From Halorubrum lacusprofundi ATCC 49239 (GTDB lineage Archaea; Halobacteriota; Halobacteria; Halobacteriales; Haloferacaceae), in the NCBI RefSeq assembly GCF_000022205.1, contig NC_012028.1, positions 310,001 through 374,000 of the forward strand: a DNA stretch of 64,000 nt. Direction: 5' to 3'. The position numbers and the translations under genes are program-made. This document shows, piece by piece, positions 4,712 to 50,084 of this stretch; the stretch's first letter is position 1; each line of letters opens with the position of its first letter. The notes beneath the pieces were generated by a model, which ran no database searches, had not been told where the DNA came from, and worked only from the letters and a program-made list of their open reading frames with translations.

Positions 4712-7045
4712 ATGAGCAAGCATCCAGACCACGAGCGTATCCGGGACTCTTCGTCGGAAACTGATTCCGGGGGGCCCGTCTACTGCTGCCGTATCTGCCA
4801 GTTAGAAGCAAATGGAGGGAGGCGAGCGCCAGATTCCTCATCCGCCACGGAGCCTCCCCACTCCTCCGAGCACGCGAACCACGACCGGACGGACGAGACC
4901 ACCACGGAACCCGGAGGCACCGACGAACACTCACACCACGATCACGAAGTCGAGTCCGGACACAGCCACGCCGAGGCTACCCACGCCCATACTGGGGGGG
5001 ACGAACACGACCACGACCACGGCGCGGACGTTCACGAGGGAGAGCACGAAGATCACGGGGCCCACACCGATCACTCGGGTCACGAGCGGATGTTCCGGCG
5101 GCGGTTCTGGGTATCGCTCGCGCTCTCGGTGCCAGTCATCTTCTTCAGCGAGTTCATTCAGGATGTCTTCGGCTACACAGCGCCGACGTTCCCCGGAAGC
5201 GTCTGGATCACGCCGGTTCTTTCGGTGATCATCTTCGCGTACGGTGGCGTGCCGTTCCTCTCGATGGCCCGGACGGAACTCGAGAACCGCGAGCCGGGGA
5301 TGATGATGCTCATCTCGCTGGCGATCACCGTCTCGTTCGTCTACTCCATCGGCAGTTTGTTCCTCGAGGGGACGACGCCGTTCTTCTGGGAACTCGTTAC
5401 GCTGATCGACATCATGCTCTTGGGCCACTGGATGGAGATGCGGTCGGTCCGACAGGCCTCCGGCGCGCTCGACGAACTGGCGAAACTCATGCCTGACACC
5501 GCCGAGCGTATCACCGAGAGCGGGGATACCGAGGAAGTACCCGTTTCCGAACTCGGCGAAAACGATGTCGTACTCGTCCGTCCGGGCACGAGCGTGCCTG
5601 CCGACGGCGAAGTCGTCGAAGGCGAGTCGTCCGTCGACGAGTCGATGATCACGGGCGAGTCCCGTCCCGTTGACAAAGCGCCCGGAGTGGAGGTCGTCGC
5701 CGGGACGGTCAACCAAGACGGAAGTCTCCGCATCAAAATCACGAAGACGGGCGAGGAGACGACGTTGGCGGGCATCATGCGGCTCGTTGATGAAGCCCAG
5801 AAATCGAAATCTCGAACCCAGTTGCTCGCAGACCGCGCAGCTGGCTGGCTGTTCTACGTGGCACTCGGCGTCGCGGCGATTACGGCCGTCGCGTGGGTCG
5901 TCGCCACGGGGTTCAACATCGGTGTTCTCGAACGCGTAGTCACAGTTCTCGTCATCGCGTGCCCGCACGCGCTCGGACTCGCAGTTCCGCTCGTGGTCGC
6001 GATCAACACCTCGACGGCTGCCCAGAACGGGATGCTCATCCGCGACCGGATTGCCATGGAGGAAGCCCGGAACCTCGATACGGTGATATTCGACAAGACC
6101 GGGACGCTCACGAAGGGCGAGCAGGGTGTCGTCGGCGTCGAGACGGCAGACGACTGGAGTGAGGAGCGAGCGTTCGAAGTCGCCGCTGGTGTCGAGGGTG
6201 ACTCCGAACACATGATCGCTCGCGCCATCCGGGACGCCGCCGAGGAACGAGACGTCCAGCGAGCGAGCGTTTCGAACTTCGAGAACTTTCGCGGTCTCGG
6301 CGTCAGAGCCACCGTGGACGGTGAGACGGTTCATATCGGTGGACCGAACCTGATTGAGAAACTCGGTATCGAACGATCCGACGGCATCGCTGCCTTCGCT
6401 GAGGAAGCCGGTTCGAACGCAGAGACGGTCATCTATCTGGTTCACGACGAATCCGAAGTCGTCGCAGCATTCGCGCTCGCGGACGTTATCCGGGACGAAA
6501 GTCGGCAGGCTATCGAGGCGCTACACGCGATGGACATCGAGGTGGCGATGCTGACCGGCGACTCCGAGGATGTCGCGAGGGCTGTCTCAGAGGAACTCGG
6601 TATTGACCAGTACTTCGCGGAGGTCCTGCCCGAGGAGAAGGACACGAAGGTCGAACAACTCCAGTCCGAAGGAAAATTCGTCGCGATGGTCGGCGACGGC
6701 GTCAACGACGCACCGGCGCTCACGAGAGCAGACGTCGGTATCGCCATCGGCTCGGGGACCGATGTCGCCATCGAGTCGGGGGATATCATCCTCGTCGACA
6801 ATAACCCGCTGGACGTGGTGCGGCTCATCCGACTGTCGAAGGCGAGCTACCGGAAGATGCAGGAGAACCTCGTCTGGGCGACCGGCTACAACGTGTTCGC
6901 GCTCCCGCTTGCGGCGGGAATCCTCGCTCCCATCGGCATCCTCCTGTCGCCGGCGATCGGCGCCGTGTTCATGTCGCTGTCGACGATCATCGTCGCGATC
7001 AACGCTCGCAGACTGGGGAACGTCGACCTCTCAGTACCTGCGTAA
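4712..7045 (+). CDS. copB: CopB-type (P1B-3, CPH motif) copper-transporting ATPase
   Basis: The membrane metal site is CPH ([10 protein letters not shown]) rather than CPC, which marks the CopB/P1B-3 group. The phosphorylation site [13 protein letters not shown] loop, GDSEDVA and [11 protein letters not shown] are all present. The N-terminus has no HMA domain. Instead it carries a short Cys patch (YCCRICQ) and a cytosolic tail of about 100 residues very rich in His, Asp and Glu, typical of this subgroup and probably a metal sensor. ATG 4712 is preferred because the upstream in-frame ATG 4685 adds an atypical nine residues. A small membrane-protein gene follows after 15 bp. Together with copA this forms a two-pump copper resistance island. 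Confidence 0.95.
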
Positions 7046-7060
7046 CCCACAATCTCAGCC

Positions 7061-7276
7061 ATGTCAGTCACTACGACAGTGCTGTTCGGGCTTGGACTCC
7101 TGTCCAGAGGGATACTACTCGGTGGGCTTCTCGTTCGTATCCGGAGCCAGTCAGGCCGGTTCTGGCCCCACGGCACCCGCAACTGGACGTTCTGGCTCGG
7201 GTGGACAGCATGGACCGTCGCACTCGTGATTCTGTTTGGAGTATCAATGTTCGCCAGCTGGACGCGGTCGCGTTAA
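7061..7276 (+). CDS. Small two-helix membrane protein, possibly a truncated methyltransferase-like protein
   Basis: A 71-residue protein with a hydrophobic segment at about residues 5-25 and another at about 45-65. The linker (FWPHGTRNWTFWLGW) resembles the N-terminal part of NnrU/isoprenylcysteine-methyltransferase-like membrane proteins, which are normally about 200 residues or more, so this may be a 5' fragment of such a gene. It starts 15 bp after copB and could be co-transcribed with it. No catalytic region is present. Its function is not known. Confidence 0.5.
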   Translation: MSVTTTVLFGLGLLSRGILLGGLLVRIRSQSGRFWPHGTRNWTFWLGWTAWTVALVILFGVSMFASWTRSR

Positions 7277-7382
7277 GTTAGAGGACGAGGCGCTCGACTG
7301 CAGAGTGTCTATGGCCGAAATCGAACGCCTCAACGATGGTATCGCGTGAATTGACTTGTCGTTTGTTGCTGTATACGCGCGT
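7277..7382. other. Short intergenic stretch without a recognisable gene
   Basis: Downstream of the small membrane protein there is only a 12-codon frame starting near 7311 (MAEIERLNDG), too short to interpret. The rest of the gap up to queD is decayed IS sequence, described separately. Confidence 0.4.
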
Positions 7383-7508
7383 TGTATCTCGCACGGCTAT
7401 CGGAACTCCTCTTTGAATTGGTGGAACACTCGGTGGTCAATATGGCTTCGTTGCTGAGCGACTGTTCTGCTTGCGAACCGGTCTGAAGGAGTAGGATCCG
7501 ACAGAGCC
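7383..7508 (+). mobile_element. Decayed right end of an IS5-like element (transposase 3' tail and terminal repeat)
   Basis: Bases 7383-7441 match 15439-15499 at roughly three positions in four (TGTATCTCGCACGG, then GGTCAATA). Translated, this resembles the C-terminal residues of the IS5-like transposase at 31842-32663. Downstream, GTCTGAAGGAGTAGGATCC and ACAGAGCC (about 7481-7508) are a mutated version of the terminal repeat GGATTTCAACAGAGCC seen intact at 15564, 33593, 36510 and 36831. The IS end stops one base before the in-frame ATG 7510 of queD. Confidence 0.65.
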
Positions 7509-7522
7509 GATGAAACTCAATG

Positions 7523-7529
7523 CTTATAT
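7523..7529 (+). promoter_or_regulatory. TATA box of queD
   Basis: CTTATAT lies 23-29 bases upstream of ATG 7552. This is the usual spacing between an archaeal TATA box and a transcription start, so queD is probably leaderless from 7552, and the earlier in-frame ATG 7510 lies upstream of the promoter. Confidence 0.55.
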
Positions 7530-7551
7530 CCTCGCCCTATATTCTTCGGAT

Positions 7552-8013
7552 ATGTCTCAAAGCATATCAAGAGATGATTCTACGATAGTAGACCTGGCCG
7601 AAGCAGGCCAACGAACACTCCAAATTGGAGCAGGCAACCCGATTCGGATCAGCTCGGGCCACCGAATCCTCCATCACGAGGGGAAGTGCTCACGGCCACA
7701 CGGGCACAACTACGAGATCACCGTCGAAGTGACCGGCCAACTCACCGAGGAGGGGTGGGTCGTCGACAAAGGCGACGTCACGGACGTCATCGACGCGTGG
7801 GACCACCGGTTCCTCGTCGAAGAAGGCGATCCGCTCGTCGACGCGTTCGAAGCGTCGGGCGACAGCGATGCCCTCGTCGTCCTCGATCATCCACCGACGG
7901 CAGAGGTGATGAGCGTCCTCCTCGAACAGCGAATGCTCGACGCGTTCCCGGACACCGTCTCGGACGTATCGGTGTCGGTGAGCGAAACCGGCGAGCTCTG
8001 TGCATCGTACTGA
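7552..8013 (+). CDS. queD: 6-carboxy-5,6,7,8-tetrahydropterin synthase QueD
   Basis: QueD converts dihydroneopterin triphosphate to 6-carboxytetrahydropterin, an early step to preQ0, the precursor of archaeosine in tRNA. The zinc-binding region is clear: GHRILHHEGKCSRPHGHNY carries the His of the first site, the catalytic Cys and the HxH pair. A second conserved region is DWHRF-like (AWDHRFLVEEGDP). Start 7552 is chosen over 7510 because a TATA box lies in between and the extra 14 residues are hydrophobic and unlike the family. The stop overlaps the queE start (TGATG). First gene of queD-queE-queC. Confidence 0.93.
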   Translation: MSQSISRDDSTIVDLAEAGQRTLQIGAGNPIRISSGHRILHHEGKCSRPHGHNYEITVEVTGQLTEEGWVVDKGDVTDVIDAWDHRFLVEEGDPLVDAFEASGDSDALVVLDHPPTAEVMSVLLEQRMLDAFPDTVSDVSVSVSETGELCASY

Positions 8014-8789
8014 TGCCGGTCGCTAGCGATGTCGAGGAGCCCGCAACGGATGTTGACGCGGCTGGTGAGGGGCTCCCGATCAACGAGGTGTTCTACTCGC
8101 TGCAGGGCGAGGGAACGCTTGCTGGTGTGCCCTCCGTGTTTGTGCGGACGTCTGGGTGTAACCTGCGGTGTTGGTTCTGTGACTCGTACCATACGTCGTG
8201 GGAGCCGACCGGGGCGTGGCGCGACGTCGACTCGATCATTGAGGAGGTTCACTCCCACGAGCAGGCGAATCATGTCGTTCTCACGGGCGGAGAGCCGCTT
8301 ATCCACGAGGAGTCCATCGAACTTTTGGAACGACTGGCTGCAGACGGGTATCATACGACGGTGGAGACGAACGGGACGATTTACCGGGACGCGCCGATCG
8401 ATCTGGCGAGTATCAGCCCGAAACTGGCGAGCAGCACGCCGACACCGGACCGTGACCCGAAGGGGGAGGGTGAGTGGGAAGAGAAACACGAACAGAACCG
8501 GATCGATATGGATGCGCTGTCCCAGATGGTCGACGACTACGAGACGCAACTGAAGTTCGTCGTGACAGATGCGTCGGATCTCCCACAGATCACGGACCTG
8601 GTTGATCGGGTGCGAGAAGCGACGGCGACGACCGTCGCCGATGATGACGTGTTGTTGATGCCGGAGGGAATGACGCGGGAGCAACTTGATGGAACACGAA
8701 GTGAGGTCGCCGAGTTAGCGATGGAGTACGGCTACCGGTACACGCCGCGCCTCCACGTTGACCTGTGGAACGACGCCCCGGGAACATGA
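8013..8789 (+). CDS. queE: 7-carboxy-7-deazaguanine synthase QueE (radical SAM)
   Basis: QueE rearranges 6-carboxytetrahydropterin to 7-carboxy-7-deazaguanine with S-adenosylmethionine and a [4Fe-4S] cluster. The cluster motif CX3CX2C is present as CNLRCWFC, preceded by the substrate-loop text FYSLQGEGTLAGVPSVFVR. TGGEP, which binds the SAM amino group, follows. ATG 8013 overlaps the queD stop, implying translational coupling. Length (258 aa) and order are normal for haloarchaea. An open frame continues upstream through queD but is its shadow. Confidence 0.95.
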   Translation: MPVASDVEEPATDVDAAGEGLPINEVFYSLQGEGTLAGVPSVFVRTSGCNLRCWFCDSYHTSWEPTGAWRDVDSIIEEVHSHEQANHVVLTGGEPLIHEESIELLERLAADGYHTTVETNGTIYRDAPIDLASISPKLASSTPTPDRDPKGEGEWEEKHEQNRIDMDALSQMVDDYETQLKFVVTDASDLPQITDLVDRVREATATTVADDDVLLMPEGMTREQLDGTRSEVAELAMEYGYRYTPRLHVDLWNDAPGT

Positions 8790-35295: not shown

Positions 35296-35754
35296 TTAAA
35301 AGCTGCTGGCACCCTCCGGTTGGCTCCATCTTGAAGTGTTTGGCTCTGTTGAAATCCTGTTCTTCAGACGTGTTATCGGCTGAAACGCCCGGTCTGGATT
35401 GACCATATAATAGAGCAGTTCGTAGTTTCCGACTCCAAGATCCTTGGGACTTTCCAGAACATCGTCCATGACCTCTTTCTGTTCCTGATCGATATCATGC
35501 GTTGATTCACTGAACGACTCGTAAACTTCGCGTAGGTCTTCAGCTTCCATGAAATAGACGAGGTACACGCCGTCGTCCCCCTGTTCAAGAAATGCCGCCT
35601 CGGTTAACATTCCTTCCGACTGGAACGTTTCGATAACTTCGCTCTCCCGTTCCCGGACTTCGTCCATCCACTCCTTGAGCCGGTCGACCTTGTCAGGCTC
35701 AATCTTTTGTTTCGTTAGGACAGCTTCGGTCACGTAACATAGGTTGGATGCCAT
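35296..35754 (-). CDS. DUF6176-like protein with an IS-derived C-terminal extension
   Basis: Residues 1-115 match the DUF6176 pattern: LTKQKIEPDKVDRLKEWMDEVRERESEV, EGMLTEAAFLEQGDDGVYLVYFMEAEDLREVY, a His in STHDID and LLYYMVNPDR near the end. The family, about 110-120 residues of unknown function, normally ends there. Here translation runs on through an IS right end: ...RISTEP is the read-through of AGGATTTCAACAGAGCC, followed by 12 residues of flanking sequence. The gene sits between two opposed IS5-like ends (35342 and 35828). Confidence 0.7.
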   Translation of the reverse strand: MASNLCYVTEAVLTKQKIEPDKVDRLKEWMDEVRERESEVIETFQSEGMLTEAAFLEQGDDGVYLVYFMEAEDLREVYESFSESTHDIDQEQKEVMDDVLESPKDLGVGNYELLYYMVNPDRAFQPITRLKNRISTEPNTSRWSQPEGASSF

Positions 35755-35828
35755 TCACATTTGTGTACGGCCTATATTGACCGGAACCGGAATGAGATGT
35801 GTCACTTTCTGAGGATTTCAACAGAGCC
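35342..35828 (-). mobile_element. 487-bp unit with IS5-like ends carrying the DUF6176 gene and no transposase
   Basis: The minus-strand left end GGCTCTGTTGAAATCCTCAG (complement at 35809-35828) matches the left end at 31790. The other end, GGCTCTGTTGAAATCCT at 35342-35358, is followed inwards by GTTCTTCAGAC..., matching the right-end subterminal pattern. No target duplication was found. It may be a non-autonomous element with cargo, or two separate IS scars. Confidence 0.6.
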
Positions 35829-36055
35829 AGTATTCGTTGTTCACGATCGGCACGGCATCCGAGGCGGAACTGTCCAACCCGAAGCTTCTGATGTGGCGCT
35901 CCCGCGAGCGGTTCGAGGTAATCTGTCGGCTCTCGCCACTGATCGGTGACAACTTCCTCAAGCTTGGAGATGATCCGATCGCGAGCGTATTCGTCGAGTG
36001 CCTCGAACTGTCGCTTCGATCGGTCAGTGAGCTTCCAGTCCCAGTCCTCGCTCAT
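35829..36055 (-). pseudogene. RelE-family toxin with its C-terminus removed by an IS end
   Basis: The frame begins MSEDWDWKLTDRSKRQFEALD and contains the RelE core RVGQFRLGCRADREQRILA, then runs into the IS terminal repeat at 35828 and continues with 42 IS- and flank-derived codons to 35699. The last RelE strand, carrying basic residues needed for mRNA cleavage in this family, is lost. It overlaps the antitoxin gene by four bases (36052-36055), the normal arrangement of a type II TA operon. Confidence 0.8.
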
Positions 36056-36330
36056 TGCTCGCTGGCATCGTCACGTCCGTACTCCGCTTTGATCTCCTCG
36101 CTGGAGTGGGTTCGACCTTCCTGAATGTCGACCTCGCTCGCAGCAATCGCCTTGAGATCTGCACGGTTGAACTCCGGATGTTTCACCGCGTCACGGAGTA
36201 CGTCGCGAACGAACTCGCTACGGCTGTTGTACCCCAAATCTTCCCATGTTGCGTCGACGTCGGAGAGAAACGTCTCCGTTATTCGGATGTTGACTGTCGT
36301 TTTCTCGGGCGACGAACTGGCTTCGGACAT
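36052..36330 (-). CDS. Ribbon-helix-helix antitoxin of the RelE-like pair
   Basis: 92 residues. The N-terminal TTVNIRITETFLSDVDATWEDLGYNSRSEFVRDVLRDAV is a ribbon-helix-helix DNA-binding domain. The C-terminal part (FNRADLKAIAASEVDIQEGRTHSSEEI) would bind the toxin and resembles RelB-like tails ('EGRTHSSEE'). It is intact although its toxin is truncated, so it may persist as an orphan antitoxin able to neutralise related toxins. Confidence 0.8.
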   Translation of the reverse strand: MSEASSSPEKTTVNIRITETFLSDVDATWEDLGYNSRSEFVRDVLRDAVKHPEFNRADLKAIAASEVDIQEGRTHSSEEIKAEYGRDDASEQ

Positions 36331-36395
36331 GCTACTGTGTTGAAATTGTGTAGCAATAACAGTTACGCCAAATCAGATGTGTCGAGGAACTTTTG

Positions 36396-36446
36396 CTACT
36401 GCTCCATCTTTTCACGCTGATTGCGGCGGTCGTAGTGTTCGTCAAG
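36396..36446 (-). pseudogene. 3' end remnant of an unidentified gene
   Basis: A minus-strand run of about 16 codons ending DRRNQREKMEQ stop stands directly against the IS-derived repeat beginning at 36447. It is the tail of a gene whose body was removed. Too short to identify. Confidence 0.3.
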
Positions 36447-36756
36447 CAGGTCTCATCGACCAGCCGTTTCAGGCAAGTATATGTCTGAGAAAAAGTATTT
36501 CAACAGAGCCGAGCGTTTGTATTTATTTCAACGAAGGCCGATGCGCCTGTAACGTGTGTATATGTACCAAATACTTGCGGGTACCGTCAGCAACTGGGCC
36601 GTTGGGACGCCCATCGAAACCAGATGTAAGAGCGCAACGCCACCGTAAACAATCCGATTAGGAGACCAGTTACAGTCTCTCCGTCAAACTGCCCTGATGT
36701 CAAGCCACAGGCTCACCGAGAACAACGGAACCAACAGTACCACCGCGATTTTGAAT
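36447..36756. repeat. 310-bp direct repeat, copy 2 (first copy 15501-15810)
   Basis: Nearly identical to copy 1. It includes an IS5-like right end (terminal repeat to 36510) and the 3' third of the membrane-protein gene found intact at 15582-16007. The gene is cut at 36756, where another IS right end follows. Confidence 0.9.
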
Positions 36757-36764
36757 CAGTCAAC

Positions 36765-36831
36765 TCGCAGTCTTCAGCGACCGGCTGTTTCAGGTGAGAA
36801 TCTATCTGAAGAATGGGATTTCAACAGAGCC
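36765..36831 (+). mobile_element. IS5-like right end with terminal repeat
   Basis: GCAGTCTTCAGCGACC, GGCTGTTTCAGG, and finally GGATTTCAACAGAGCC ending at 36831 form the best-preserved subterminal pattern of this family. No transposase is attached. It truncates copy 2 of the 310-bp repeat. Confidence 0.7.
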
Positions 36832-36837
36832 TTATAA

Positions 36838-37449
36838 TCATGAAGGTGGAAGGAGATCCGAGTCAATGACGTCTGAGCAGTCGACTGGAATCCCCTCCCA
36901 CGCAGCATCGACGGCGTGATAGCCTGTCCACCCTTCGCTTTTGAGAAGTTCAACACACGTTTCACAAAACGCTGTTCGCGAGATGAGATCGTTATCGTAG
37001 AGAATGTAGAAGAGAAAAGTCGGTGGCACTACACGCGCCTCGAGGTCGCGGTTCTGAATCTCTCGACGGATCGAACGGCGGCCGTGAGCGTCCATCAACA
37101 CCACGTAATCGACCGCCTTTGGATGCTGCACGAGATGCTGTTCCAGCGATTGTTCACCGGCATCAGCCCCATGCGGTCGAGGGACACTCACGACACGTGT
37201 CAACGGTGTCTCTGTATCCTCAAGCGCATCAAGAACACGCGTACTACCGTGGTGAAGGCGATACGAGCGACTTCCTTCTGGAGCGTGAGAGCGGTTCTGC
37301 TCGTAATGGCGCTTTAGCTCCTGCTGGCAGACGTTCGTGGTCGTGAGTCCGATGTTCTCAGTAATACAATCCCATAGTGAGCTGTTCCCGACAGCGATCA
37401 GGGCGTCAGTATCGACGAGAATCGGATATTGCGATTCCTCAGTCGCCAT
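36838..37449 (-). CDS. PIN-domain protein, probable toxin, 203 aa
   Basis: The N-terminal YPILVDTDALIAVGNSS places the first catalytic Asp residues of a PIN RNase. Other acidic positions follow in NVCQQELKRHYE and DYVVLMDAHGRRSI. It is longer than classical VapC (about 130 residues) because of an insertion around residues 60-110. The start abuts the stop of the preceding gene (37450), so the two form an operon typical of PIN TA systems. The 3' end lies seven bases from an IS end but appears complete. Confidence 0.7.
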   Translation of the reverse strand: MATEESQYPILVDTDALIAVGNSSLWDCITENIGLTTTNVCQQELKRHYEQNRSHAPEGSRSYRLHHGSTRVLDALEDTETPLTRVVSVPRPHGADAGEQSLEQHLVQHPKAVDYVVLMDAHGRRSIRREIQNRDLEARVVPPTFLFYILYDNDLISRTAFCETCVELLKSEGWTGYHAVDAAWEGIPVDCSDVIDSDLLPPS

Positions 37450-37761
37450 TCAAACAAGATATTGGCTGGTATCGTCCTCGGCTGCCGCGGCAAACTCTTC
37501 GATATCTTCCTGGAGGAGGTCGAACTCCTCGCCAAGCAGCAGGCGAGTAGCCTCCTCGGAGATCTCACCTGCCTTGTAGCGTTCATAGAGGGTGATTTTG
37601 TCCTCGTCAGTCATGCTCCGACGGAGCATATCTGCAAGCCCCGCTCGGGCGAGTTCGCTGATATTGATCCCGCCGAGATGGATCGCATCGAGCTCGCCAG
37701 CCGCCTCTTTCAGCGCGCCCGCGCGGAATTTGATGGTATCGTCGTACGAGCCCTGACTCAT
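37450..37761 (-). CDS. Probable antitoxin partner of the PIN protein, 103 aa
   Basis: The helical segment MTDEDKITLYERYKAGEISEEATRLLLGEEFDLLQED resembles UPF0175-type antitoxins that pair with PIN toxins. The N-terminal half (RAGALKEAAGELDAIHLGGINISELARAGLADMLRRS) could form a ribbon-helix-helix-like DNA-binding part. It stands directly upstream of the PIN gene with no gap. A promoter should lie in 37762-37860. Confidence 0.6.
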   Translation of the reverse strand: MSQGSYDDTIKFRAGALKEAAGELDAIHLGGINISELARAGLADMLRRSMTDEDKITLYERYKAGEISEEATRLLLGEEFDLLQEDIEEFAAAAEDDTSQYLV

Positions 37762-39940: not shown

Positions 39941-40027
39941 CATTTTCCAGTCATTCAATTGAATAGTCCTGAGTGATAGAACTCAGCCAGAGCCGTTCTA
40001 CCCTGTCCTCTAGTAAGACTTTTAACT

Positions 40028-40047
40028 GTTACCGGGTTATTGGTAAC
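40028..40047. promoter_or_regulatory. Inverted-repeat operator GTTACC-N8-GGTAAC before the intact TA pair
   Basis: Same architecture as 26814-26833, here seven bases upstream of ATG 40054, with TTTTAACTG just before it. It is likely the autoregulatory operator of the HTH antitoxin. Confidence 0.72.
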
Positions 40048-40053
40048 TACCAG

Positions 40054-40728
40054 ATGTACGAGGTTCTCGACGACACGGCGGCACAGACTATCCTCGCCAT
40101 CGAGAGTGGTGACTCCATCCGCCGGGTCGCCCAACACCTCCACACGCCCTACGAGACAGTGAGACAGGCCGTCAATCGGCTGGAAGACGCAGGCTACGTC
40201 ACCTATGACGACGGCCTCACTGTCGTCGACGAGCGCGTACGCGACGCAGCCCGCGAGCTCGTCGCTGCCAGCGCCGGCGTCAGTCCACCCTCCATCGAGG
40301 AAACGTACGCCATCCCACAGTTCAGTGACTGGCCGTTCGCGTTCACGCGGATCGACGCCGTCTACGTGTGGACTCAGGGCGGCTACCAGGTCGGTCGCGA
40401 GCCCGACGACTATCCATTGTTCCTCGCTGTTCGTGAGCAGGACGTCGACGCCTGGGAGACATTTTTCGAGTCGTTCGACCTCCCCACCGCATTCGAACGA
40501 CAGCCCCAAGACGAGTTGGACGGACCGCTGCAGATCGTCCTCGAGCCACGCGCGTCACTCGACATCGAGCACGTCGAAGGGTACCCGGTGATCCCGAGAG
40601 CAGAGACAATCGAGTATATGCGCGAGAACTACGCCCAATTCCAGTCGGGGCTGGCGATGCTCGACCGGATGTACGAGGACCTCGACCTCGGCGTCACGTA
40701 TCGAGAGACCGAACGGGCACAGCCATGA
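40054..40728 (+). CDS. HTH antitoxin-like regulator of a nucleotidyltransferase TA pair, 224 aa
   Basis: A helix-turn-helix at residues ~15-50 (SIRRVAQHLHTPYETVRQAVNRLEDAGYVTYDDGL) is followed by a C-terminal domain conserved in three copies here (40054, 26798 and 60190): DAVYVWTQGGYQVGREPDDYPLFLAVREQDVDAWETFF. ATG 40054 (MYEVLDDTAAQ) follows the operator immediately. The in-frame ATG 39973 lies upstream of the operator. It overlaps the nucleotidyltransferase by four bases (ATGA), the arrangement of AbiEi/AbiEii-like type IV TA systems. Confidence 0.82.
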   Translation: MYEVLDDTAAQTILAIESGDSIRRVAQHLHTPYETVRQAVNRLEDAGYVTYDDGLTVVDERVRDAARELVAASAGVSPPSIEETYAIPQFSDWPFAFTRIDAVYVWTQGGYQVGREPDDYPLFLAVREQDVDAWETFFESFDLPTAFERQPQDELDGPLQIVLEPRASLDIEHVEGYPVIPRAETIEYMRENYAQFQSGLAMLDRMYEDLDLGVTYRETERAQP

Positions 40729-41420
40729 GCTTCAACAATCGAAGTGACGCGCTCATCGAACTGCTCGAAGAGCTCACCCAACAGGGTCACGAGTACGTTC
40801 TTGTTGGCGGCTACGCTGTCTCAGCGTTCAATGCTCGCTTCTCCACGGATCTCGATATCGTCGTCGCGCCAGACTCCAAGGCTGACTTCGTCGAGTTCCT
40901 CGAACAGCGGGGCTTCGAAGAAACGGACAGCCACGCCAAGGAGTGGTTCTACGATACCGAGGTAATCGAGTACGAGAAGCGGCTCACGCCGCAGCAGCCG
41001 ATCGGCTTCGATCTCCTGGTAAACGGACTCGGGTGTCGCCAGACGGAGGCACAGTGGTCGTTCGACTACCTGTACGACCACAGCCACCAACAGGAGGTGA
41101 GCGGAGGCACAGTGACGACGACGGCCAGAGTCATCGATGGGGCAGTCCTCGTCGCGGCAAAGCTCCATAGCGGCCGTGAAACAGACCTTCGGGATGTCCT
41201 GGCAGTGGCAGAAGAAATCGATCTCGACGCTGTCACGCCACACCTGCGACGAGGGGACGACGATGCGCTGCGGGAGCAGCTTAAGCGTGGACTGGAAATC
41301 TTGGAGAGCGACGAACTCAAGCACGGATATCGGAGTGACTTCGGGGCCTCAGCTGTCTCAGAAGAAACGGTCACCGCTCTCCAAGAGTATCTGTCTGCTC
41401 AGATTGACCACCTGAGCTGA
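40725..41420 (+). CDS. Nucleotidyltransferase-fold toxin (AbiEii-like role), 231 aa
   Basis: The polymerase-beta-like active site is visible: EYVLVGGYAVSAFNARFSTDLDIVVAP, with the GG(x)A helix start and the DxD in TDLDIVV, and a third acidic position likely in GFDLLVNGL. The C-terminal half is helical and contains DGAVLVAAKLHSGRETDLRDVLAVAEE, a K-x-n-R-DLxD motif typical of such toxins and nucleotidyltransferases. It is full length, in contrast to the copy at 25920-26134. Expected to modify RNA or nucleotides when free of its partner. Confidence 0.8.
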   Translation: MSFNNRSDALIELLEELTQQGHEYVLVGGYAVSAFNARFSTDLDIVVAPDSKADFVEFLEQRGFEETDSHAKEWFYDTEVIEYEKRLTPQQPIGFDLLVNGLGCRQTEAQWSFDYLYDHSHQQEVSGGTVTTTARVIDGAVLVAAKLHSGRETDLRDVLAVAEEIDLDAVTPHLRRGDDDALREQLKRGLEILESDELKHGYRSDFGASAVSEETVTALQEYLSAQIDHLS

Positions 41421-42992: not shown

Positions 42993-43083
42993 ACACGTCG
43001 TCCGGAGGGCACCCATAAGTACTTCCTGTCATAGTGGACCTCAGCTCTGGCGACAGTGTACCTTCTATACAGTCGTTGCGTAA

Positions 43084-43881
43084 TCAGAAGACCTCACGTG
43101 AACCCTGACCGGCTTGGGAGTGACTATGAAACTCATCTAAAATATACAGGATTGAAACATCAAATAATGACGCCAGTTGTTGCTGATATCGGACGATGTC
43201 TTTCTTATCTCCGGTCACAACACGCTGAAGCATATCGCGTTCTGCAAGCCCTATTGCGTCAAGAAGCCACTGCGAGTCTACTGGAGGAATTCGGGACTCT
43301 CGAATTCCGATGTGCTCCTGGACTAGACCGCGAGCGCGCTCCTGATCGTCATAAGTTGAAGACATGATGTGGACAGCATCCATTAGAGCGTCTTTCCGCT
43401 CCTTTGCGTCGTGGAGAACGCGATCTCGAAGATCTTCGACACACCGTTTCGCATTTCGCGGGGTGATTTCCCGCGAGGAGAAGTAGTTCTGGAAGTGCCG
43501 AACAAAGTGTGGCTTGGCCTGACTTCGAACCTCAATATTATCGAAGAAAATCTCTAAGATCCTCTCAAACGAAAGCCCATCGTAGCGCTGTAAATCGATT
43601 TCCCGATTGTACATTGGGATATTATCCTCGACATTCTCTTGAAAGTCTTCAAGAACGGTTCCGAACACGCCACCTGTACCGTCAGGATCAACCTGTAGCT
43701 GATCGGGGTCGGAAACAACTCGAGGCGCTCCTTGCGGACGGCTACAATACTCATAGATTACAAAATCACTCGTGAAGAGCGTGTTATGACCGTCTAGGAT
43801 ACGCTCTGCTTCTACGGCCCACCGGTCGTGAGAAAACGTGAGTCCAATGAGGACGTTAGTGTCTACGAAGTATCTAGTCAT
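43084..43881 (-). CDS. Large PIN-domain protein, 265 aa
   Basis: The PIN RNase core is recognisable: MTRYFVDTNVLIGLTF (first Asp near residue 7), DFVIYEYCSRP (acidic helix), ERKDALMDAVHIMSS (middle Asp) and RVVTGDKKDIVRYQ (last acidic region near the C-terminus). At 265 residues it is about twice VapC, with an internal ~100-residue insertion. It overlaps the preceding 285-aa gene by four bases, so the two are co-expressed. It is divergent from the short-Argonaute operon at 44839, in a defence-island context. Confidence 0.72.
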   Translation of the reverse strand: MTRYFVDTNVLIGLTFSHDRWAVEAERILDGHNTLFTSDFVIYEYCSRPQGAPRVVSDPDQLQVDPDGTGGVFGTVLEDFQENVEDNIPMYNREIDLQRYDGLSFERILEIFFDNIEVRSQAKPHFVRHFQNYFSSREITPRNAKRCVEDLRDRVLHDAKERKDALMDAVHIMSSTYDDQERARGLVQEHIGIRESRIPPVDSQWLLDAIGLAERDMLQRVVTGDKKDIVRYQQQLASLFDVSILYILDEFHSHSQAGQGSREVF

Positions 43882-44735
43882 TGGCCCGGATGAAAATCTT
43901 CGTGCGGAATCCCCCGGCGTTCAAGAATCGGAGCAACAAGTTCGTCAGCTGCGCTCCGCTCAGATTCGAGTTCGGTCGCTAATCCAGAAAATTTCGCATC
44001 AAGGTCTTCCTCTTCAAATTCGTCAAGTTTCTGGATCGCAGAACTACGAGCCTGCTCAAATGAAGTTATACCGAGGTTCCCACAGACCTCTTCCTGAGTC
44101 ATTCCCTGGGCATGCCGTTGAGCAAGTTCGAGAGCAAATATACGCCAGAACGTTACATTCACAGTCATCAATCTGGAGGGATCAGGAGAATGCGAATGGA
44201 GTTCTCGAGCGACCGCATTATACCACTTGATTATTGGTCGATCGTACTCCGGAAATCGGTCGTTTGGAAATGATTCAAAAGTTTCGTGAACCGAGCTGAG
44301 TACCGATTCTCTGCTTGGGTCAACCTCAAAGAAATCGTGATACTCCGTATGTAACGTTCGTATTTTCTTATCTAACTCCCGAAAATCCCGCTGAACCTGA
44401 TACGGCGCATCATCATACATTCTGTCTGTGAGCCATTCTAACCCATGTTCGTAATATTCAGAGAGAGCCTCTGAGACAACAGTACGCAGGCAATCTTCAA
44501 CTCCGGGCTCATTAATACTGGCTGAGGGGACAGTCGAGGGCGTAGCTGGAGAGACAGTACCAAAGAGATACCAGTAATACGGAATCTCGATGTCCAAATC
44601 TTGTTCGGCAGATTTGACGTCAATACGATAGAGGAGCTTGTGAAGCGACTTTTTCGGTAACGTATCTGCGGCCCCACGCTCGCGATTGAGGAGACGCAGA
44701 GTCGTTCCCAGGGCCTCGCGGTTCATTATATCCAA
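43878..44735 (-). CDS. Partner of the large PIN protein, 285 aa, no assigned family
   Basis: The N-terminal part (LPKKSLHKLLYRIDVKSAEQDLDIEIPYYWYLFGTVS) loosely resembles the opening of DUF4065/Panacea-type antitoxin domains (a KLLY helix followed by a YGPV-like turn), but the match is weak. The C-terminal part has a sigma-like HTH (GMTQEEVCGNLGITSFEQARSSAIQKL). Its stop overlaps the PIN gene by four bases. A helical, DNA-binding antitoxin for the PIN protein is a reasonable inference. Confidence 0.55.
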   Translation of the reverse strand: MDIMNREALGTTLRLLNRERGAADTLPKKSLHKLLYRIDVKSAEQDLDIEIPYYWYLFGTVSPATPSTVPSASINEPGVEDCLRTVVSEALSEYYEHGLEWLTDRMYDDAPYQVQRDFRELDKKIRTLHTEYHDFFEVDPSRESVLSSVHETFESFPNDRFPEYDRPIIKWYNAVARELHSHSPDPSRLMTVNVTFWRIFALELAQRHAQGMTQEEVCGNLGITSFEQARSSAIQKLDEFEEEDLDAKFSGLATELESERSAADELVAPILERRGIPHEDFHPGQ

Positions 44736-44838
44736 TATCTACCGCTCGTTTTATAGAAGTACCGTCGGATCCCAGTAGACTATCCAACGACTGAGGGAAA
44801 AGTAATTCACACGAGACTTCCTTGTAACGAGATACAAC
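44736..44838. promoter_or_regulatory. Divergent promoter region between the PIN pair and the Argonaute operon
   Basis: 103 bp between two divergent starts. It contains AT-rich text on both sides. No clear palindrome was seen. Both systems are therefore likely expressed from adjacent promoters. Confidence 0.4.
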
Positions 44839-46038
44839 GTGCCCATCTACAATCTATATAAAGAGCGGGAAGGGACGGCGCGACGCGGGGAGGACTATAA
44901 GGAAGTCGTCATCGAGTACATGGAAGGGCTAAATTACATGGTTGAGCTGGATTCAGCCTTCCACTCCACGCTTGACGATATTCAGTTTGTGAACAAAGCT
45001 ACGGGCGATAAAGTGGTAGCCGAAGCGAAAGCGTATTCCACAGGCCTCAGCCCGAACGATTTTAGAGACGAACTCGCCCGGTATTTCCTCGAATACATCA
45101 AACAGCCCCAACCCCACCGTTTTGATTTCTATATTTTTACGGAGACACTCTCTAATGACCAGCTCTGGAAAGCCCTATTCGATCGAGATGTCACCGATAA
45201 TCAGAAACTGGTCGACTTCTACGAAAAACTCAAAGACAGCGTCAACGATGAGGTCGTAGATCGGCTAGAGGATACTGAGGTAGATGAGTTCCGAGATTTT
45301 GCTATCGATACCCATGTTTTCGTAGGTACATATGATGATCTCCGTCAACAAGCTCATCAACTCGAGAAAACAGAACGGTTCCAGTACGAACCATATCTTC
45401 ACTCGTACGAACCAGTTACGGAGGAAACAGAATATGCGACAAATCTGTTTCAGGTAACCCACTACCCTGAGACACTGTACATCATAGAGACGACGGAGGA
45501 AGCCGAGTCGGCTCGCGTCTATAATTACAACAACGAGGCGTTTCCCATCAAGCTTCACGAGCGGAAGTTATATTCTCTGGTTCATCCGGACCATCTTCCG
45601 GGGTCTACTCGTCATTACCTCCACGAGGACCGTTTCGAAACCCGAGATTTCGAGGAGTTCCTTCGAACGGGTGCTCAAGAGGAAGAGCGCGAAAACATCG
45701 TAAGATCGCTTCTCAGAGGAATATTCACCCTCGTTGCTAGAGATAACGATTGTCTCATCGACCGTGAGAAAGGAACAACGGTATACCCAGAACTCGACCG
45801 CAAACAGCACGGTACCGAGCGAAAACTAGGTCGATCTTGGGTTGCAAAGGAGTTAGACTCCTACCCCGATGTCATCCATCGTGGTGTCAAAGTACGAGTG
45901 CGGCGCTATGCAGGAGAGTACTACTACGTTCTGCTACCCACACAGGTCTTTACTTCTGACGGTCGTCGGCCTGTAAAAGGCGAGCGTAAATCGCGGCTCC
46001 AAAACGACTTCTCACCAAATCGCTTCCACGCCCAGAAT

Positions 46039-47437
46039 CAGTACCTCACAAAGCATCCTCGGCTAGCTGTTTCTGCGGCCTGAGTTCTGTGTCGAAGCGG
46101 TTGTACTGACGGTCTCGACGAGAGAATTACGGACGGATCGACGGAGAGCTGTCGCTGTCGGCGGCGGTCAGCCGCCGACGCGACAGCGTCGCCACTCACT
46201 CCGCTGGCTTGCTCGGTCGGTGGTTAGCGGTGGAATCGGTCGTCAGGTGGCCGATTCGCGGGGACGGCCCGACGCACCGCGAGGGCCGTCCACGCAGCTC
46301 GTCGAATCATATTGACGAACTCCTTGTACGGCCACCACCAGAGGCGACGCCCGCCTCGGCGGGGCGTCGCCACATACTCGTAGTGAAGGTACCGCCAGAC
46401 GTTCTGTAAGAGGAGACTCACCACCACGTACAGCAGCCGTACCGTTGGATCTCGTGTTGTCGTTGTCGCTATCGCTTGCTCAAACAAGCGATAGCTTGAC
46501 TCGATACCGAAGCGTTTCGAGTAGTGGTATCGAGCGTCCCGTGGTGAGTCGATGAACGGCGCGTCAGCGGCGTAGCCGTGACGCGCCACACCGTTCTCGT
46601 CATACTTCCCATTTAGGTACGTACAGTCGATGTAGACGGGAAAATCGACGGTCCAGCTGTGACCGTCGAGTTTCCCCGTCAGATCATGCTGAATGACGCG
46701 ACTCCATCCTTCCGAGAGCTCTTGCTGAATCGCCTCACCCCACCGGATGATCGGGATCACGTACGCGTAATTGTGCGCCTGAAGCAGCGTGAGACACTTA
46801 CTGTCGTAGAATCCGCGATCAAGGTAGACGGCCTTGACCCCGGCGTCAAGGCCGTCGAGGACACCGAAGAACTCAGCGAGGACACTACTTGCGGTATCGC
46901 CGTCTTTGAGACGGCGTACCGCCAGCGTGTAGCGTTTGTTCTTCACACGCGCGTAGAGTGTGGCATAGGCGTGGAACGCAGTGGTTCCACGCTTCGCTAC
47001 CGAGTGATAGAGGCCGTCTGTGTCGTCTTCGTCACCGTAGTAGGGCCGCAGGTGGAGGTCTGCGCAGACCTCCACCTGTTCGGGGAGCAATTCATCGAGA
47101 TCCTTTCGCAGGAGCGTGTTAGCGACTCGTTCGAGCCGTTCCGGCTCGAACTTCGTCCGAAGATGGTAGAGGACCGTGTTCCCAGCGGGTGAGTTCTGGC
47201 TCGACGCACAGAGCGTAGAGACAGAGGTCCCGTCGGCGCAAGCGCCGACGAGGACCTCATAGATGTCTTCAGCAGTGATTTCAGCGTTATTGGCTAACGA
47301 GAGCGAAACTTCCTCGTCAAGGCGGTTGACGAGAAAGTTAAGAAGCTGGTCCTCGTGGATCTCACCGTCTGCTTGTTTGGTTTTAGACACACCTTCAGCA
47401 AGCAGACGTTCTAACTAAGCGGCTTTGTGAAGTACTG
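46039..47437 (-). mobile_element. ISH3-family insertion sequence, copy 2 (1399 bp)
   Basis: Same ends and same length as 16598-17996, apparently identical. The 5-bp duplication AGAAT flanks it (46034-46038 and 47438-47442). It interrupts the Argonaute-effector gene. The two copies lie in the same orientation 29,441 bp apart. Confidence 0.95.
46224..47390 (-). CDS. ISH3-family transposase, 388 aa
   Basis: The protein is identical to that at 16783-17949, with the same DDE residues (ADLHLRPYYGDED, VYLDRGFYDSK and KRFGIESSYRLFEQ). It is intact and transcribed opposite to the gene it interrupts. Confidence 0.95.
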   Translation of the reverse strand: MSKTKQADGEIHEDQLLNFLVNRLDEEVSLSLANNAEITAEDIYEVLVGACADGTSVSTLCASSQNSPAGNTVLYHLRTKFEPERLERVANTLLRKDLDELLPEQVEVCADLHLRPYYGDEDDTDGLYHSVAKRGTTAFHAYATLYARVKNKRYTLAVRRLKDGDTASSVLAEFFGVLDGLDAGVKAVYLDRGFYDSKCLTLLQAHNYAYVIPIIRWGEAIQQELSEGWSRVIQHDLTGKLDGHSWTVDFPVYIDCTYLNGKYDENGVARHGYAADAPFIDSPRDARYHYSKRFGIESSYRLFEQAIATTTTRDPTVRLLYVVVSLLLQNVWRYLHYEYVATPRRGGRRLWWWPYKEFVNMIRRAAWTALAVRRAVPANRPPDDRFHR

Positions 47438-47663
47438 AGAATAGTAAATACGACCGCCAGCTGCGTGTCTGGGAAGAGCTGCTGATGTCCGATCAGACCC
47501 AGCTTGACCGATTTATTGGCGAAAAGATACCCGTGATAAAGGAACTCGAAGTAACCAGGGTTGACTCCCTTTCCCTCAATGTCCGCCCACCCAAAGACGG
47601 AGAGGAACGTGACGAGCTCATCGAGTCAGCTTCTGATCTCGAAAACACAGGTGGAATTGAACA

Positions 47664-48708
47664 ATGACGCCTGAAGATACTCCGTTCACGCTTCGTCACA
47701 TCGAGGAGCCAGAGATTCAGTTTGAAGGGGGTACTGAAACCTCTCCCAAACGAGGCCTCATCAGATATGGTCCACGGCTCTATGAGGAAGGACACCACAC
47801 AATCAAACTCGGGATTATCGGCGATCGAGATTCGATCCGCCGGTTGACCGAACTACTTCACGATATGGAGGTCGGGATCCATCCAGGAACAAGTGATAAT
47901 CCGTGGCAAGTTCCGTATCCCGGCCTAGGTAAGAGTTCCCCGCTCAATCTTTCTATTAATGCAAAAAAGGGCTGGAGACGCCAGATTCGTCGACGGGACA
48001 TCCAATCTGTTACGAGTAAATCAACCCCAAGAGACCGGATGGAGCGATTCCTGAAGCTAGTGCGGAAAGACATCGAGATAATCGAACGGGATTCCGTTCA
48101 GCCGAATGCAATCATCGTCTGTATTCCGCAAGAAGTAATGGACGCGTGTACTCCAGAGAACCAGGACCATGCGCGAATCCAGTCGGAAGGTTCTGACCTA
48201 CGAAATCGAATCAAACTGATCGGGATGGAGGCTCGAATCCCCACACAGCTGATTAAGCCGTCCACACTTGCGATCCGTACTGACCGACAGCGAGCATCTC
48301 GGGCCTGGAATCTCACAGTCGGACTTCTATACAAGTCTCAACGAGGCCATCCCTGGAAAACTCGGCAGATCGAAGATGGGCACTGCTACGCAGGGCTCTC
48401 GTTCTACAGGGAGCGAGACGAAGGAGATGATGTAATCCGAGCTGCTCTTGCTCACGTCTTTCACGGACGGGACCATATTATCCTTCAGAGCGATCCACTC
48501 CCGGATATCACCGAGGACGAAAATGGATCTCCCCACCTCTCATATGAGGCGGCTAGACAGGTAGGTGAGCAGATTCTGGAATACTACGAAGCTCAGAAAG
48601 GGACACGTCCCAGCCGGTTCGTCCTTCATAAGCCATCTGTCTTCTGGGAAGAAGAACGTGAAGGGCTACTTGATGCCACAGACGGTGTTCGCGATTTAGA
48701 TCTAGTAT
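47664..48708 (+). pseudogene. Short prokaryotic Argonaute (MID-PIWI), C-terminus lost at an IS
   Basis: About 348 residues remain before the IS at 48709. The MID-type opening (HIEEPEIQFEGGTETSPKRGLIRYGPR) and the PIWI segments YAGLSFYRERDEGDD and TRPSRFVLHKPSVFWEEEREGLL are clear. The first catalytic Asp is Ser in AGLSFY and the last position is Lys in HKPS, so the PIWI site is inactive, as in short Argonautes that need a separate effector. The final ~25-30 residues, including the C-terminal carboxylate used for guide binding in this family, are missing; the frame runs on into IS sequence to 48791. Confidence 0.85.
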
Positions 48709-50084
48709 CAGTCGATCACATCGAGAATTCTCTACCCCCTCCAGTAGAGGTTGAATTTGCGTCTTCGATGCGTGGTCAATTCTCGAAATGACACGGACGG
48801 TGAGTTTCGGCGGTGAGGGGTCGCTGTCGGCGGCGGACTGCCGCCGACGCGACAGTGTCGCCACTCACGATTGCTGTCCCGAGCGGTGGACAGCTACCGG
48901 AAGAACCGGTCGTCGAGTGGTTGGTTCGCTGGAACAGACCTGCGCACACCAAGCGCTGTCCAGGCTGCCCGCAGCACCATCTCACAGAACTCCGTGAACG
49001 ACCATCTCCAGAGGCGGCGCCCCCCGCGGCGGGGCGCCGCCACGTACCTCCAGTGAAGATACCGCCAGCTGTTCTGAAGCAATAGGCTCACTACAAACAT
49101 CACCAGCCGCAGTCCAGCATCCTGAGAACTGGTGAACGCGAGGCTCTGCTTGGCTAATCGGTAGCTCGACTCGATGCCGAAGCGTTTGCTGTAGTGGTTT
49201 CGGGCATCTCGTGGCGTGTCGATGAACGGCGCGTCAGCGGCGTAGCCGTGACGCGCCACCCCGTGTTCGTCGCACCGTCCTTGCTGGTAAACACAGTCGA
49301 TGAACACAGGAAACGTCACCTCGCCGGCGAGATCGTGTTCAATCTCGCGGCTCCAGCCGCTGTTGAGTTCGTCCTGAATCGTTTCGCCCCACTTGACAAT
49401 CGGCATCACGTAGGCGTAGTTGTGCGCGTACAGCAGTTTGAGACCGGTGCTGTTGTAGAATCCGCGATCGAGGTAGACGGCCTTGACGCCGAGGTCAAGG
49501 CCGTCAAGCAGTTCAAGAAACTCAGCGAGGACATCGCTGGTGGTCTCGCCAGCGACTAACTGGCGAACCGCCAGCGTGTACCGCTTGTTTCGTACCCGCG
49601 CATAGAGCGTCGCATACGCGTGAAACGCCGTGGTTCCGCGTTTAGCCTGCGAGGAGTACAGCGCCTCTGTCTCGTCCTCGTCACCGTAGTAAGGATCCAG
49701 GTGGAGGTCGGCGACGACCTCCACCGGCCGATCCGGCAGTGTCTCAAGAGTATCTCGTTGCAGGAGTGTGTCCCCAACCGCCTCAACGGAGTCCAGCTCA
49801 AACTGGTCGGTGAGATGTCCACGGACGGTATTGGCGTGGGGCGAGTCGTCAGTTGTTTCGCAGACGTGGTTGATTGAGGTCCCGCCGGCGCTGGCGCCGG
49901 CGAGGACCTCGTACAACGTCTCTGTCGTGACCTCGACATTCTCGCCGAGGTCTATCGCAAGTTCCTCGTCGAGGCTGTTGACGACACAATTAAGCAGGTG
50001 CTCTTCCTCTATCTCGCTGTCTGCCTGGGTAGGCTTCACACCGCACCCAAGCAGACACTTACTCTAACCCGATGTGATCGACTG
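48709..50084 (-). mobile_element. ISH3-family insertion sequence, distinct type, 1376 bp
   Basis: Ends CAGTCGATCACATCG (48709) and its complement CGATGTGATCGACTG (to 50084) are terminal repeats. The flanking pentamers differ (AGTAT at 48704-48708, AGAAT at 50085-50089), and the flanks belong to two different genes (short Argonaute, Orc1). Insertion was therefore followed by recombination or deletion. Confidence 0.9.
48894..50039 (-). CDS. ISH3-family transposase, 381 aa
   Basis: A relative, not a copy, of the 388-aa enzymes. ADLHLDPYYGDEDE, VYLDRGFYNSTGLK and NHYSKRFGIESSYRLAKQ supply the DDE residues. The Trp/Arg-rich C-terminus (WRYVAAPRRGGRRLWRW) is shared. It is intact. Confidence 0.93.
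   Translation of the reverse strand: MKPTQADSEIEEEHLLNCVVNSLDEELAIDLGENVEVTTETLYEVLAGASAGGTSINHVCETTDDSPHANTVRGHLTDQFELDSVEAVGDTLLQRDTLETLPDRPVEVVADLHLDPYYGDEDETEALYSSQAKRGTTAFHAYATLYARVRNKRYTLAVRQLVAGETTSDVLAEFLELLDGLDLGVKAVYLDRGFYNSTGLKLLYAHNYAYVMPIVKWGETIQDELNSGWSREIEHDLAGEVTFPVFIDCVYQQGRCDEHGVARHGYAADAPFIDTPRDARNHYSKRFGIESSYRLAKQSLAFTSSQDAGLRLVMFVVSLLLQNSWRYLHWRYVAAPRRGGRRLWRWSFTEFCEMVLRAAWTALGVRRSVPANQPLDDRFFR

Follow-up and report, generated by a model that had tools for sequence, protein, structure and literature searches.

What is the pair of overlapping genes that lies beside the short-Argonaute (short-pAgo) operon of Halorubrum lacusprofundi ATCC 49239, an independent toxin-antitoxin (TA) or defence pair, or a part of the Argonaute locus itself? 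The window that we analyzed is a stretch of 64,000 nucleotides from a contig of 526 kb in this haloarchaeal genome (3.69 Mb, three contigs). Both open reading frames are present where an earlier note on this DNA had placed them, on the minus strand and overlapping by 4 nt, with the stop codon of gene B (43878-44726) lying over the start of gene A (43084-43881). An alternative TTG start at 44735 gives gene B a length of 285 aa, but this start is probably nine bases too early; we prefer the ATG at 44726, which gives 282 aa, because a TATA-like element (CTATAAAA, minus strand) is found at a distance of about 26 nt, and because RefSeq starts the homologue on plasmid pNG600 of Haloarcula marismortui 9 nt downstream, at the corresponding ATG.

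Gene A encodes a protein of 265 aa, and the earlier proposal of a PIN protein about twice the normal size agrees with the fold predicted for it (PIN/VapC, Z about 12). Pfam PIN matches residues 4-47 (E=1.6e-4), where the score of 22.7 bits falls just under the cutoff of 23.6 bits. VapC structures align to the AlphaFold model (mean pLDDT 90.7, with 30 homologues in the alignment) at Z 11-12 over 125-140 residues, with the middle part unmatched, and Foldseek relates the model to PIN proteins at a marginal E of 0.13 and a probability of 0.93. In the model, helices inserted at about residues 70-170 account for the double size. The expected metal ligands D7, E44, D208 and D225, all present in the window protein, are retained in 19-21 of 21 Argonaute-type homologues, with D208 missing from two of these PINs, and D202 is kept in 21/21. 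On the strength of this model and of the nearly invariant catalytic acids, we class gene A as a PIN nuclease with a VapC-like core. The pair shares with VapBC this PIN core with metal-binding acids, best fold matches to VapC, and a nuclease gene in second place, but VapC is small (about 130 aa) whereas A has its helical insertion, and the partner in VapBC is a small DNA-binding VapB-type antitoxin whereas B is a Panacea-related protein of 282-285 aa. PDC-S70, the archaeal PIN system named in PMC12988326, was considered as an identity for gene A and rejected, since a PADLOC scan of the A relatives gave no consistent family. RefSeq places the start of the PIN homologue on pNG600 (locus L177, 4701-5333) about 165 bases too far downstream, giving 210 aa instead of 265 aa; the catalytic N-terminus is thereby lost, which may be why the protein is labelled hypothetical.

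Gene B is no known enzyme, a possibility that the earlier note had raised for it. A Pfam search of the window protein matched no family (best HTH_28, E=0.17). Helices make up most of the AlphaFold model (pLDDT 87.7), in which the second helix leads into a short beta hairpin, and conserved positions include K29, K33, Y36, W55, Y56 and G59. Since a Foldseek search against the PDB gave nothing better than E 0.39 and VIA-align found only generic helical bundles (Z about 9), we make no fold claim for B; among PDB sequences, the B profile likewise found no more than weak matches to unrelated proteins (E about 0.03). The sigma-like helix-turn-helix (HTH) that had been read into the sequence is weak: helices do occur in the model at residues 186-207, at 214-221 and from 226 onward, and so in the region 186-236, but the best Pfam HTH match among the B relatives reaches E 0.015, and an HTH in the C-terminal part is putative.

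The weak Panacea/DUF4065 head proposed for B found support in profile-profile comparison rather than in direct Pfam matches to Panacea, which are below the cutoff or absent in the B family, and absent for window B. We gathered archaeal Panacea proteins via PF13274 as the comparison set. Against it, the non-Argonaute relatives of B reached a probability of 92-93% (about 130 columns, E about 3e-7 to 7e-7), and 86-89% was obtained for the B family as a whole, compared with at most 0.9% for PIN, pAgo and APAZ alignments used as controls and 0.2% for column-shuffled ones. An alignment of Argonaute-type proteins with ten other members (A5) reached 40-67%, and one of Argonaute-type proteins alone (A1), compared solely with an early Panacea set that included three wrong-strand ORFs, reached 21%. 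The GPV signature of Panacea is absent from window B, which has GTV; Argonaute-type relatives mostly have GT(V/M) at this position, and a GPV/GPM/GPY-like motif occurs only in some non-Argonaute relatives. These comparisons point to a remote relationship of the N-terminal part of B with Panacea/DUF4065 that is good for the family and indirect for the window protein, since the probability is high via the non-Argonaute relatives and 21% for A1. Many toxin folds are known as partners of Panacea (PanAT; PMC8832971, PMC10440598), and the pair studied here resembles these Panacea/DUF4065 (SocA) systems in that a gene of a family with profile-profile kinship to PF13274 adjoins a gene for a toxin-type enzyme. 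It differs from PanAT in the GT(V/M) in place of GPV, in the long helical C-terminal part of B, in having no Pfam-level match, in being embedded in a defence locus, and in that neutralisation is here putative.

Neither NCBIfam nor PADLOC holds a family that names gene A or gene B, and gene B matched none of the antitoxin families of Pfam, NCBIfam and PADLOC, in agreement with the earlier view that the pair belongs to no named TA family. Our literature search, with subscription papers and bioRxiv outside its scope, found no open paper that describes short pAgo with a partner of the PIN or Panacea kind. Both genes are shared by many genera, in which identity is about 25-38%, with dN/dS values of 0.09-0.20 that indicate purifying selection, and B is followed by the PIN gene in every family genome that has B, so that the co-occurrence in other genomes on which the earlier note had made its proposal depend is found there and in most non-Argonaute loci. 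This combination of conservation across genera, purifying selection and co-occurrence argues against a chance pairing. Viral contigs and phage records contained no relatives of B. We conclude that the pair is probably an undescribed toxin-antitoxin-like module in haloarchaeal short-Argonaute loci.

Our census of Halobacteria (391 genomes) identified 37 short-pAgo places, with that of the window counted among them. B lies within 5 kb of the short pAgo in 34 of them, and in a further genome (G227) the locus is split across contig ends; with this one counted, the pair is present in 35/37 loci. The two exceptions, one on contig C3 of the window's own genome and one in genome G056, are also without a recognisable APAZ. 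Conversely, a pAgo lies within 5 kb of 34 of the 36 strong B places, plus G227. The census is not circular, since the alignment used for B was built from B homologues and not from neighbours of pAgo. The pair is a regular, co-inherited part of the haloarchaeal short-pAgo locus, and the census rules out reading it as an isolated TA pair beside Argonaute. The earlier note is thus supported in its proposal of an unnamed TA-like or defence pair adjacent to an Argonaute operon, but it missed that the pair belongs to the locus rather than being an independent neighbour, that the family also occurs in DISARM loci, and that the operon itself is degraded in the window.

Examination of the individual loci showed two types of arrangement. 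In the usual one, B and the PIN gene run in one direction and REase-APAZ and pAgo run divergently from them; in the second, B, PIN, APAZ, pAgo and a membrane protein follow one another. Near-identical relatives (87-93%) occur in 13 loci of other haloarchaea, all with a divergent REase-APAZ and then pAgo, one of them with the contig edge inside pAgo. In 7 of these 13 loci the DNA similarity ends at or near the stop codon of A (43051-43114), so that the shared block ends with A. At 24-47% identity, the four genes recur in 13 of 15 further loci. In the remaining two (L055, 4406-8509, and L062, 7020-12409) all genes point one way: B and A come first, then a gene for an APAZ-like protein that lacks REase, a short pAgo gene and a gene whose product has hydrophobic C-terminal segments. 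L142 (5245-9391) has the same order of B, A, APAZ and pAgo, likewise with an APAZ that lacks REase, and the short pAgo of this variant is diverged in sequence. SiAgo-Aga1-Aga2 (cited in PMC11442185) is a pseudo-short pAgo system with a membrane effector, and L055 and L062 resemble it in their APAZ-like gene without REase, pAgo and following gene for a protein with hydrophobic C-terminal segments, but differ in that B and PIN come first, oriented like the genes that follow. A PADLOC scan of the putative membrane protein of L055 and L062 gave no match. The B proteins of this membrane-effector type fall inside the Argonaute-linked B group, although their pAgo is merely 17-18% identical, which suggests that the B-A block has moved between pAgo types at least once.

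Nuclease-associated short-pAgo systems have been described as two proteins, an APAZ effector and pAgo. The haloarchaeal locus is like these SPARDA or nuclease-APAZ systems in having REase-APAZ and a short pAgo in one operon (PADLOC Aga_REase_Archaea and pAgo), which is intact in relatives and disrupted in the window, but it adds a co-inherited B and PIN, usually divergent, that are absent from PMC12205087 and PMC10810196. A whole haloarchaeal clade thus carries two extra co-inherited genes that no library we searched recognises.

Pairwise distances within the locus are correlated; kinship of the sequences inflates such correlations, which are therefore support for joint inheritance but no measure of it. 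For B against A, r is 0.95, or 0.79 when 12 non-redundant loci are used; for pAgo against APAZ it is 0.92, or 0.90 in the non-redundant loci. Between the two blocks the links are looser, yet above permutation: 0.60-0.71 for A or B with APAZ and 0.37 for B with pAgo, all in non-redundant loci. In the B tree, the Argonaute-linked proteins lie on one side of a branch with 100/99 support.

More distant B proteins are found in haloarchaea and other Halobacteriota, and a profile search placed an A-like PIN directly downstream of B in 22 of the 28 non-Argonaute loci examined; in one locus (L159) a different, small PIN-like gene follows B, as judged by eye. In two loci the relatives of the pair lie inside or beside DISARM genes, with the order DrmE-B-PIN-DrmA in one (L134, 2981-11242) and with B-PIN divergent from DrmA in the other (L135, 4398-9670). 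In L137 and L173, DrmD/BrxH-like helicases and Hma-like methylases lie near B relatives, and many other non-Argonaute B loci have no evident defence neighbour. The presence of the B-PIN family in DISARM loci argues against a role confined to Argonaute. It also bears on the idea that A supplies the short pAgo with RNA guides by producing or trimming them, with B as an RNA-binding or scaffolding partner, an idea in keeping with the near-obligate association with pAgo across two effector types and with the RNA guides that nuclease-associated short pAgos take (PMC10810196, PMC12205087). We consider such guide supply unlikely, since the family occurs in many loci without any Argonaute, DISARM included, since the bacterial DUF4365-APAZ/pAgo systems function as two proteins (PMC10810196), and since the pair co-diverges less closely with pAgo than pAgo does with APAZ.

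In the window itself, the Argonaute genes are broken by insertion sequences. Gene B is separated from REase-APAZ by a divergent intergenic region of 112 bp (44727-44838) that is strongly conserved among near relatives; the divergent region that the earlier note had the pair share with the Argonaute operon is real. The 5′ part of REase-APAZ (44839-46083, plus strand; PADLOC Aga_REase_Archaea, E=2e-141) has 414 aa compared with 474 aa in homologues, with true homology stopping at about 46038. There it is interrupted by an insertion sequence (about 46039-47437, minus strand) with inverted ends, a transposase ORF at 46224-47390, and a 5-bp AGAAT duplication that is seen against the empty site in L014. 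A 3′ fragment of REase-APAZ follows at 47485-47667 (plus strand), with residues identical to the C-terminal ones of the homologue in L014. The short pAgo (47664-48791, plus strand; PADLOC pAgo, E=2e-136) is truncated at its C-terminus, with 375 aa compared with 472 aa in homologues and homology as far as about 48706, so that about 120 C-terminal residues are lost; a search up to 52000 did not find them. The ORF of a second transposase gene (48894-50039, minus strand) adjoins the truncated end.

Genes A and B are intact beside these disrupted genes (44839-50039), as they are beside a broken Argonaute operon in L143, and the pair thus survives here without a working Argonaute operon. A self-maintaining pair would be expected to behave in this way. 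It could do so as a plasmid-stabilising TA pair, linked to the locus by chance, that prevents loss of the Argonaute genes and has no immune role. Such plain addiction, which would fit the many plasmid-borne loci and the copies of the pair outside Argonaute loci as well as the broken operon, is in our view unlikely, since co-occurrence in 35/37 loci with a fixed order, persistence of the pair to 25-35% identity and its retention through a change of effector all exceed the usual loose linkage.

The intergenic region raises another possibility, that B serves chiefly to repress the divergent Argonaute operon by binding DNA, with the PIN protein tuning transcript levels. The divergent order, the conserved 112 bp and the HTH-like helices at 186-236 of B would suit a regulator, as would an imperfect 21-nt inverted repeat (44745-44765 and 44811-44831, 71% complementary) that lies near each of the divergent promoters. 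We regard this as unlikely: the HTH matches are marginal, the membrane-effector type has B and A upstream of the Argonaute genes and co-directional with them, and, among four intergenic regions of other clades, three have no inverted repeat and the fourth has one of 7 nt only. A shared operator for B in the intergenic region is accordingly unsupported outside the window's own clade.

The reading that we favor, with a probability of roughly 0.52, is that short-pAgo immunity took up a Panacea-like/PIN module of toxin-antitoxin type to serve as its RNase arm or guard; the same figure covers, jointly with this reading, the assignment of gene A as a metal-dependent ribonuclease. We infer the RNase activity of A, its neutralisation through B, the triggering event and a connection with pAgo activation alike. 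The B-A module would have been recruited, probably once, into haloarchaeal short-Argonaute loci. B, encoded just upstream of A and probably on the same transcript, would bind and restrain A through its Panacea-like or its helical C-terminal part. Infection, or an attack on the Argonaute system, would alter B or its amount and free A, which by analogy with VapC would cut tRNA or mRNA so that growth stops. Next to the effector that pAgo fires, whether DNA-degrading or of the membrane type, A would in this way be an additional RNase arm or guard.

Several lines of evidence favor recruitment of such a module: the PIN fold and conserved acids of A, the Panacea profile probability of 86-93% for the B family compared with no more than 0.9% in the controls, and a gene order that puts the putative antitoxin first, the two genes being overlapping or adjacent in loci with Argonaute and in loci without it. 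The short-pAgo census, the B-A and APAZ distance correlations, the 100/99 branch for B, the relatives in DISARM and DrmD/Hma-like loci, and the intact state of the pair beside broken Argonaute operons in the window and L143 point the same way. It is weakened by the GT(V/M) of Argonaute-type B, by direct Pfam Panacea matches that are below the cutoff or absent, and by the loss of D208 in two Argonaute-type PINs. In L130, moreover, B is split into two ORFs with A intact, which would be awkward if A is a strong toxin, although an error in the draft sequence is possible. Should the pair indeed act as a guard or as a second effector, Argonaute immunity in archaea would include an RNase arm.

A broader and more tentative proposal is that archaea use B-PIN generally as a guard module that can be fitted to defence systems of unrelated kinds (short pAgo with two effector types, DISARM and DrmD/Hma-like loci), in which B would sense a disturbed host system and release the RNase as a back-up abortive response once the primary system is triggered or inhibited. 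If true, the presence of such a portable module in DISARM loci too would yield a rule, open to testing, on the way defence is wired to growth arrest in archaea. The four-gene locus of Haloarcula marismortui ATCC 43049, on plasmid pNG600, makes the locus testable in a cultured organism.

Other features of the window and its genome were recorded along with the locus. At 35699-37761 and 39973-41420, the window contains further pairs that look TA-like by eye, one consisting of proteins of 118 and 92 aa, another of a PIN-like protein (203 aa) and its 103-aa partner, and another in which a nucleotidyltransferase with weak NTP_transf_5/AbiEii matches comes after an HTH protein. The same genome also carries, in L128 (C3:89000-104000) at 6899-8323, a second, full-length short pAgo without APAZ or B-PIN, with a transposase remnant upstream and an Hma/SspC-like ATPase downstream.
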